Below, one piece after another: positions 29,607 to 30,765 of a stretch of DNA of 37,696 bases. The notes under the pieces were generated by a model, which saw nothing but the letters and a program-made list of their open reading frames with translations, did no database searches and was not told the origin of the DNA. Within the stretch, counting starts at the first letter, position 1; the number at the start of each line of letters is the position of its first letter. Position numbers and translations under genes: made by a program. Source of the DNA: Desulfonatronospira sp. (GTDB lineage Bacteria > Desulfobacterota > Desulfovibrionia > Desulfovibrionales > Desulfonatronovibrionaceae); the NCBI GenBank assembly GCA_007125075.1, contig SLDX01000001.1:80539-118234 (forward strand). Reading direction: 5' to 3'.

Positions 29607-30458
29607 ATGTTTAAAAAAGGTTTAGCGGTTTTAGCAGTGCTGGTCATGCTGATGGGCTTTACTTCTTCTCCGGCGGGCGCCCAGGGCAGGCTGACCCTTG
29701 CTTATGTTGAATGGGACTGTGCTGTAGCCAGCACAAACGTGGCCCAAGCGGTTCTGCAGGAAAAGCTGGGCTATAATGTCGAAACCCTGTCCGTCAGCGC
29801 AGCTGCAATGTGGCAGGGAATCGCAACCGGCGATGTTGACGCCATGGTTACCGCCTGGCTGCCTGTTACGCATGCCGACTACTGGGATGCGACAGAAGGC
29901 CGGGTGGAAGATCTGGGAGTCCTGGCCGAAGGTGCCAGAATCGGGTTGGTGGTTCCGGAATATGTGACCATCGACAGCATTGAAGAGCTAAATGACTATG
30001 CAGACCGGTTCAGAGGCAGGATTACCGGCATTGATCCGGGCGCAGGAATCATGTCCAGAACAGAAGAGGCCATGGAAGAATACAACCTGACCAACATGGA
30101 ACTGCTGGAAGGCAGTGACGCCACCATGGCCGCCGCTTTGCGCGAAGCTGTCCGCGCTGAAGACTGGATCGTTGTAACCGGATGGTCTCCGCACTGGAAG
30201 TTCGGCCGCTGGGATCTTAAATATCTTGAGGACCCCAAAAAAGTATATGGCGAAGAAGAGTACATCGGCAAGATCGGACGTCACGGATTGGAAGAAGATG
30301 CCCCTGAAGCCTACAATTTTCTGAAAAACTTTGCCTGGAGCCAGGAAGATATGGCTACAGTGATGGATTGGAACCAGGAACATCCTGACAGGTACGCCAA
30401 CGCTGTTCGTTTCATCGAGGAAAATCCTGATCTGGTGGAAAAATGGCTGGAAAACTAA
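29607..30458 (+). CDS. proX: Glycine betaine-binding periplasmic protein (OpuAC family)
   Basis: 283 aa; ATG 29607 has a TAGGAGGTACACC site. The signal peptide ends near SSPAGAQG with no lipobox, so it should be free in the periplasm. The mature protein starts RLTLAYVEWDCAVAS and has the tryptophan-rich ligand pocket of this family: VEWD, MWQGIATGDVDAMVTAWLP with HADYW, and VVTGWSPHWKFGRWDLKYL. These aromatic residues form cation-pi contacts with trimethylammonium groups. It lies 109 bp after proW, a gap with the small palindrome TTTCCTGGAAA but no clear terminator, so it is probably in the same transcript. Choline or proline betaine are possible ligands. Confidence 0.95.
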   Translation: MFKKGLAVLAVLVMLMGFTSSPAGAQGRLTLAYVEWDCAVASTNVAQAVLQEKLGYNVETLSVSAAAMWQGIATGDVDAMVTAWLPVTHADYWDATEGRVEDLGVLAEGARIGLVVPEYVTIDSIEELNDYADRFRGRITGIDPGAGIMSRTEEAMEEYNLTNMELLEGSDATMAAALREAVRAEDWIVVTGWSPHWKFGRWDLKYLEDPKKVYGEEEYIGKIGRHGLEEDAPEAYNFLKNFAWSQEDMATVMDWNQEHPDRYANAVRFIEENPDLVEKWLEN

Positions 30459-30465
30459 AAAAATG

Positions 30466-30494
30466 TTGACTTAATAATCCTGCTGGATTATAAG
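30466..30494 (+). promoter_or_regulatory. Near-consensus sigma70 promoter upstream of the tRNA-Asn locus
   Basis: TTGACT, exactly 17 bp, TATAAG (five of six consensus bases in each box). It starts 8 bp after the proX stop, and the predicted start near 30501 falls at the base of the downstream hairpin. Likely the promoter of the tRNA locus, or of a very short hairpin RNA. Confidence 0.55.
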
Positions 30495-30496
30495 CT

Positions 30497-30535
30497 AAAT
30501 CCTTGCGGAGCTGAACAGGTTCCGCAAGGATTTTT
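30497..30535 (+). terminator. Intrinsic terminator of proVWX
   Basis: AAATCCTTGCGGA and TCCGCAAGGATTTTT form a stem of about 12 base pairs around an 11-nt loop, ending in a T-run. It is a strong terminator for transcripts from proX. Confidence 0.85.
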
Positions 30536-30541
30536 AATTAT

Positions 30542-30635
30542 GCCGGTAGCTCAACCACGCCTTTGGCGTGGAGAGCGGGTGGCTGTTAATCAAGCTTTGA
30601 GCGTGATTGGCGGTTAAAAACCCAAAGGGGATTTT
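30542..30635 (+). pseudogene. Degenerate tRNA-Asn-derived element interrupted by hairpins
   Basis: Three blocks match the intact tRNA-Asn downstream, in order: CCGGTAGCTCAA (30543-30554), AGAGCGGGTGGCTGTTAA (30572-30589, includes the GTT anticodon) and TGGCGGTT (30608-30615). Between and after them are inverted repeats not found in the tRNA: CCACGCC-TTT-GGCGTGG (30555-30571, perfect, in place of the D-loop), AATCA-A-GCT-TTG-AGC-G-TGATT (30588-30608, one mismatch) and a purine/pyrimidine repeat around CCC-AAA-GGG (30621-30629) flanked by AAAA/TTTT. D-stem strands GCTC/GAGC are retained, but the 3' half of the anticodon stem, the T-stem 3' strand, the acceptor 3' strand and CCA are lost. It cannot be a normal tRNA. 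Confidence 0.75.
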
Positions 30636-30657
30636 AAGCCGAATAAGTATTTAATGT

Positions 30658-30733
30658 TCCCCGGTAGCTCAATCGGCAGAGCGGGTGGCTGTTAACCACT
30701 AGGCTGGCGGTTCAAGTCCGTCCCGGGGAGCCA
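30658..30733 (+). tRNA. tRNA-Asn (anticodon GTT)
   Basis: 76 nt including an encoded CCA. Acceptor stem TCCCCGG/CCGGGGA with discriminator G; D-stem GCTC/GAGC; anticodon stem GGTGG/CCACT with loop CTGTTAA and anticodon GTT at 30691-30693; T-stem GGCGG/CCGTC with loop TTCAAGT. All stems pair apart from G-T wobbles. It follows the degenerate copy and precedes a terminator. Confidence 0.97.
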
Positions 30734-30740
30734 AATTTCC

Positions 30741-30765
30741 AAGGCCACTTCAGGTGGCCTTTTTT
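30741..30765 (+). terminator. Intrinsic terminator after tRNA-Asn
   Basis: AAGGCCAC-TTCAG-GTGGCCTT followed by TTTT: a perfect 8-bp stem with a T-run, 7 nt after the tRNA. Confidence 0.9.

Follow-up and report, generated by a model that had tools for sequence, protein, structure and literature searches.

A hairpin-bearing partial tRNA-Asn copy in Desulfonatronospira and its links to a small GIY-YIG nuclease and a dispersed palindrome family

Why does a broken tRNA-Asn lie in front of an intact one, with hairpins in the place of its arms? We met this question in the genome of a Desulfonatronospira (a sulfate reducer of soda lakes), whose assembly, G000 in what follows, comprises 2.17 Mb in 149 contigs. 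The window, the whole stretch of 37,696 nucleotides analysed here, carries the element between a glycine-betaine binding-protein gene and the tRNA-Asn gene (Table 1). The first-pass annotation of this DNA had proposed a structured RNA, a mobile repeat inserted into a second tRNA-Asn copy, or a recombination target.

Anatomy and recurrence of the element

The limits of the element are approximate (start about 30541, end about 30645) and agree within a few bases with those first proposed. A script confirms the three ordered blocks that the element was said to share with tRNA-Asn. All three are exact: CCGGTAGCTCAA at 30543 (12 nt, tRNA-Asn 4-15), AGAGCGGGTGGCTGTTAA at 30572 (18 nt, 21-38) and TGGCGGTT at 30608 (8 nt, 48-55). 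The element lacks the acceptor 3' strand and most of its T-arm, and does not form the complete cloverleaf with acceptor stem of a functional tRNA. Neither ARAGORN nor Rfam calls it a tRNA. The intact tRNA-Asn downstream is the sole call, and Rfam returns no match apart from tRNA.

Two of the three hairpins described at first hold up. The D-loop hairpin is perfect over 7 bp and stands in place of tRNA positions 16-20. The second hairpin, AATCAAGC-T-TTG-A-GCGTGATT, has nine pair positions with one A.G mismatch, and its core stands in place of tRNA positions of about 39-46. The third symmetric element does not: it pairs only with bulges and is kept in neither G004 nor G003. It may be a decayed member of the palindrome family of the other hairpins, an uncertain assignment. 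The RNA of the whole element folds at −45.4 kcal/mol (z −4.65 against dinucleotide shuffles, 0/200). The window does contain a second tRNA-Asn copy with clean hairpins, as had been claimed, and drift alone is insufficient to produce it.

Table 1. Features around the partial tRNA-Asn copy, in window coordinates
Feature	Position	Strand	Basis or remark
Glycine-betaine binding-protein gene	29607-30458		PF04069
Candidate tRNA-Asn promoter, TTGACT-17-TATAAG	30466..30494	+	sequence; upstream of the element
Leader stem-loop with short T-run, terminator-like	30497..30533	+	between candidate promoter and element
Partial tRNA-Asn copy with hairpins, 5' part	30541..30645	+	block match; homologous copies in G004, G003, G005, G001
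D-loop hairpin, CCACGCC-TTT-GGCGTGG	30555..30571	+	perfect 7 bp; dispersed palindrome family member
Anticodon-arm 3' side hairpin	30588..30608	+	joint 38/47 recurring, 6 families
Third symmetric element	30616..30635	+	T-loop position; place equals that of the G005 T-loop palindrome and a degenerate G003 one
Intact tRNA-Asn (GTT)	30658..30733	+	ARAGORN; Rfam RF00005, 66.5 bits
tRNA-Asn terminator	30741..30761	+	no GIY-YIG gene after it in G000

Because a candidate promoter and a leader stem lie upstream, the element is probably transcribed within the tRNA-Asn precursor. The candidate promoter fails a strict scan that demands T at the sixth position; by eye, TTGAC is kept at this place in relatives. 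Stems similar to the leader stem-loop are present in relatives too, and the stem-loop is a possible leader or attenuator of tRNA-Asn.

The expectation that the element recurs beside tRNA-Asn in related genomes is borne out for Desulfonatronospira and Desulfonatronovibrio. A search of 60 relatives finds the upstream copy in G004 (88%), G003 (85%) and G005 (two in tandem). Reading of the loci adds G001, which has a copy, and G013, G016, G007 and G018, which have related hairpin-bearing ones. A pattern scan of genome contigs gives matches confined to the same two genera, barring one chance match within coding DNA of a Rhodospirillaceae MAG. Among close relatives the copy number varies from none to several: the close relative G002 has the same leader and tRNA and no copy. 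In G001 the leader AAATTTGTCTCTATG is repeated between copy and tRNA, and thus this copy looks like a tandem duplication of the leader and the tRNA 5' part.

A dispersed palindrome family and its joints with tRNA-Asn

The hairpins of the element are part of a REP-like palindrome family that is scattered over the genome. The pattern YCACGC-N5-GCGTGR occurs 43 times in G000 (reversed-pattern control 0), and the D-loop hairpin has exact duplicates at C90:12060 and C117:27885 of this genome. We count 62 palindrome cores in G005 and 66 in G006. For 30 distinct members in G000, 97.1% of the pair cells are paired, the three-base loop is nearly free, and 22 changes are double-sided, a number reached by 0/500 shuffles; part of this pairing is built in, since ten inner bases of the stem were set by the search pattern, and it is the outermost and innermost pairs that are informative. 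A covariation test of the hairpins had been proposed. Such covariation as there is belongs to the dispersed family.

The ends of the palindrome are asymmetric. TT stands at an end in 25/36 distinct contexts, CAG in 22/36, and both at opposite ends in 15/36. The commonest outward end is CAGG (21), or CCTG when read into the stem; the opposite end has TT. Hence the unit is CCTG-hairpin-TT, in full CCTG-YCACGC-N5-GCGTGR-TT. Many dispersed hairpins in G000 lie within degenerate short tandem arrays with a period of about 7 bp (L099, L100, L106, L108, L113, L114), of the types GACAGAG, TTATCAG, GTTGAAC and AGATAAC. A longer repeat, CTGAGCGAC-[hairpin]-ACTAGTCAAAATCCTTTAACC, surrounds some hairpins of G000 (L082, L084, L102, L103, L105) and crosses species (L043 and L044, in G002 and G001).

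Rickettsia palindromic elements and mitochondrial hairpin elements are known cases of small hairpins whose insertion sites are genes or RNA genes. We noticed no sequence shared between our family and the Rickettsia elements, the mitochondrial double-hairpin elements or the sponge RHE. For the Rickettsia and mitochondrial elements we know of no nuclease gene tied to one tRNA locus.

The family resembles the REP elements of the GTAG and CGTC super-families in being short, dispersed, palindromic, partly clustered and of high copy number, with a variable loop and conserved asymmetric ends (PMC3733652). However, the ends here are CCTG and TT, neither GTAG nor CGTC, and the hairpin-bearing copies are concentrated at tRNA-Asn beside a GIY-YIG gene. 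A Y1 transposase (Y1_Tnp) is absent from G000. Y1 transposases are present in G005 and G006, and no CACGC palindrome lies at 20 Y1 loci of relatives, unlike REP elements of the GTAG type, which have a flanking RAYT (Y1) transposase gene. A RAYT-driven REP is thus unsupported. REP-like palindromes outside the GTAG group have no known mobilising enzyme, as is stated for CGTC repeats (PMC3733652). For them, the nuclease at tRNA-Asn would be a concrete candidate.

Where do the hairpins meet the tRNA? A script that places hairpin flanks on the local tRNA-Asn returns recurring joints: 38/47, 24/35, 38/54, a T-loop joint at 54, and D-loop joints. The right joint lies at 35, 47 or 54 in 42/53 hairpins from the window's family and nine others, a count for which the binomial value is descriptive: some joints were read by eye, the lineages are related, and the motif filter of the second tally favours TT sites (the first tally was made without that filter). 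One G435 hairpin tallied under 47 truly sits at about 61-62, which is also a TT of the G435 tRNA. Positions 35, 47 and 54 are the only TT dinucleotides of the reference tRNA-Asn. The stem sequence is lineage-specific (TCACGC, TCCCGC, TTCCGA); the recurring thing is therefore the set of joint positions and not one stem sequence. Because the dispersed unit itself has TT as a conserved end, the match between joints and TT may reflect end homology rather than target choice.

A small GIY-YIG nuclease beside tRNA-Asn

tRNA-Asn is followed in G005, G007 and G018 by a GIY-YIG gene, about 82-92 codons long, which precedes a hairpin-bearing tRNA-Asn 3' part. The G005 protein matches PF01541 (E 4.6e-16). 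An order-wide search with this protein finds it in 4/297 genomes: these three and G003, which has a stop-bearing copy. All four genes follow tRNA-Asn or its 3' end; the G003 gene, at a contig break, starts directly behind the 3' end of tRNA-Asn and a terminator. At phylum level the subfamily appears in 18/395 genomes under a strict cut-off (1e-15), such that some negatives may be diverged positives. Thirteen of these 18 have an intact same-strand tRNA-Asn about 10 to 300 bases upstream, and in the other five, reading shows the 3' end of a tRNA-Asn or a hairpin-bearing part, or the two together.

Taken together, tRNA-Asn or its fragments adjoin the subfamily nuclease in 22/22 loci read. An intact same-strand tRNA-Asn lies on the same contig in 16 of the 22, and in G003 across the contig break. 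Among other GIY-YIG loci, read with flanks of up to 1.5 kb a side, 0/17 have a tRNA. Fisher's test gives p = 2e-11 for 22/22 against 0/17 if the loci are taken as independent, which is only partly true. The layout is directional: the partial copies upstream of the nuclease/tRNA-Asn locus are 5' parts, and those downstream are 3' parts. The nuclease gene itself has hairpin copies on its flanks; at three nuclease loci (G303, G406, G599) none are nearby.

In a tree, 21 subfamily sequences separate from 12 controls, save for one long-branch row. The closest solved relatives by sequence are the small GIY-YIG proteins of the UPF0213/YhbQ type (PDB 1zg2, E 5.5e-5, and 1ywl), followed by SLX1 (E 0.15). 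The subfamily differs from these in its signature, HNDP...TTKR..GPW, and in its genomic association with tRNA-Asn. The protein is a putative homing endonuclease, for which the genomic association with tRNA-Asn is what is shown.

Two kinds of locus deserve mention on their own. G580 (L150 / L164) carries five near-identical hairpin-bearing tRNA-Asn 3' parts at 62-bp spacing, four in tandem and one beyond the GIY-YIG gene; the array looks like a recent local amplification. In G598 and G352 (L152, L155) the GIY-YIG units stand apart from intact tRNA-Asn and are preceded by a shared sequence of the type GATRTTGAAGG...TTCGGTTAAC...GAGCGGTTATGAAGAGG, a possible second insertion site.

Nuclease presence goes along with palindrome number. 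The median count of TCCCGC-N3..6-GCGGGA is 45.5 in the 18 nuclease-positive genomes and 3 in the 377 others (p = 5e-7), a comparison in which families are not independent samples; with labels permuted within families the association keeps p = 0.0037. There are exceptions in both directions. G000, G002 and G006 have many palindromes and no subfamily nuclease found, several other genomes without a detected nuclease are also rich in palindromes (202 in G597 and 194 in G541, for instance), and some nuclease-bearing genomes have few palindromes. The stem type of the G580 locus is not dispersed, with 5/7 genome copies belonging to the local array at tRNA-Asn.

Weighing the explanations

To explain the element, we propose that it is a decaying 5' partial tRNA-Asn copy left behind by a selfish tRNA-Asn/GIY-YIG/palindrome locus, a reading we hold to be rather likely. 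Such a locus, seated at tRNA-Asn in this phylum, would consist of an intact tRNA-Asn, its terminator and a small GIY-YIG gene, with hairpin-bearing partial copies on either side, 5' ones upstream and 3' ones downstream. The anatomy, the recurrence, the place of the hairpins in their family and the association at the locus are shown; we infer the cleavage, the causal chain and the transcription in this model. The nuclease would break or nick tRNA-Asn DNA near TT sites. Repair of the break would yield tandem partial copies and capture palindromes at those sites, with the TT end of a palindrome joining tRNA-Asn sequence at TT dinucleotides. Selection would retain one intact tRNA-Asn. In G000 the nuclease gene would have been lost. 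We read the window copy as a relic because a protein search finds no match to the subfamily nuclease in G000. Taken alone, the element is ordinary debris; what is unusual is the locus that it comes from, and there the interest lies. An earlier version of the model, in which each insertion event leaves one 5' half and one 3' half, was dropped: G007 has two 3' halves and no 5' half seen.

The nuclease and tandem-copy half of this mechanism has, by analogy, a direct precedent in SegB, a free-standing GIY-YIG enzyme of T-even phages that cuts within tRNA genes and without which a tRNA segment does not undergo tandem amplification (PMC13096335). Both enzymes are encoded beside tRNA genes, and the SegB motif RAWTSGAAC reads on the other strand as the T-loop-like GTTCSAWTY (PMC13096335). 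In contrast to SegB, the protein here is small (about 80-92 aa) and encoded on a bacterial chromosome, its cutting is predicted only, and it is tied to tRNA-Asn only and to palindromes. The palindrome half of the mechanism we infer. If the model holds, it would extend SegB-like GIY-YIG-driven tandem amplification at tRNA genes to bacterial chromosomes. More tentatively, as a possibility that we would not yet bet on, the palindromes may form a new mobile class, mobilised by a small GIY-YIG nuclease and not by a Y1 transposase, with tRNA-Asn as the home where the nuclease would act at TT sites, where TT-ended palindromes are captured and from which they are dispersed.

The same observations could arise from two unrelated passengers, REP-like palindromes that another enzyme moves into redundant tRNA-Asn copies, and an independent free-standing GIY-YIG homing gene with tRNA-Asn as its site. 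We take this reading seriously and find it doubtful. Palindromes are plentiful in genomes without the nuclease, G002 combines dispersed palindromes with a clean tRNA-Asn locus, and G005 and G006 do have Y1 transposases. Against it stand the within-family association of nuclease and palindromes (p = 0.004) and the hairpin copies on the flanks of the nuclease gene; moreover, G000 lacks a Y1 transposase while the Y1 genes examined have no CACGC palindrome nearby. Improbable, by comparison, is a functional structured RNA of tRNA-Asn descent that shares the tRNA-Asn transcript, for instance as a leader with a tuning effect on tRNA-Asn or with affinity for AsnRS. The strong fold, the place between candidate promoter and tRNA-Asn, and compensatory changes in the anticodon-arm hairpin across 12 sequences speak for it. 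However, each upstream copy of G000, G003 and G004 has an uncompensated arm mismatch, and the anticodon-arm 5' block is mutated or lost in G004. Among orthologous upstream copies the arms are not preserved through compensatory change, as those of a conserved structured RNA would be. It is because the arms are mismatched in close relatives that we consider such a function unlikely. Nor is the third hairpin conserved, the copy is present in some relatives and absent in G002, Rfam has no match, and dispersed copies show the same pairing pattern. The earlier suggestions of a structured RNA and of an interaction with AsnRS find no support, in contrast to the suggestion of a hairpin-bearing mobile repeat in a second tRNA-Asn copy, which fits the recurrence and the 43-member family. 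The genome-wide spread of the hairpins and the GIY-YIG gene of such loci elsewhere in the phylum, absent from the first-pass annotation, became visible only with other genomes.

Integrases typically go with 3' fragments of tRNAs and with duplications that flank a tRNA, and 3' partial copies do lie downstream in relatives. That the copy served an integrative element at tRNA-Asn as attachment site or recombination target is nevertheless very improbable. The window copy is a 5' part and lies upstream of the tRNA, no integrase was noticed in our reading of the ORFs around the element, nor between copies and tRNA in those relatives whose loci we read, and the element has no match in phage or plasmid records. 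Least credible of all is a tRNA pseudogene decayed by chance with accidental hairpins: the copy is indeed broken and lacks its acceptor 3' strand, but the same joints occur in other genomes and families, and G000 holds 43 family members.

A phage, plasmid or viral-contig origin was also considered and rejected, with no match there for the element or for the anticodon-arm hairpin pattern. For the nuclease, a record of a plasmid collection holds the sole match, a weak one at 40%, while phages and viral contigs give none. In the literature searched we found no report that joins GIY-YIG nucleases, tRNA-Asn and palindromes. A multicopy sequence that runs into tRNA-Asn is reported for Geobacter metallireducens (PMC2700814). 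The mutant tRNA-Asn of Pelobacter carbinolicus is a different RNA that keeps its cloverleaf (PMC3543383).

What our survey brings together is a nuclease gene linked to one tRNA gene, to hairpin-bearing copies of it and to how many palindromes a genome has. There is also a practical side. ARAGORN calls an 85-nt hairpin-bearing copy in G018 (L009 373-457) a genuine tRNA-Asn, and automated tRNA annotation can thus mistake hairpin copies for genes.
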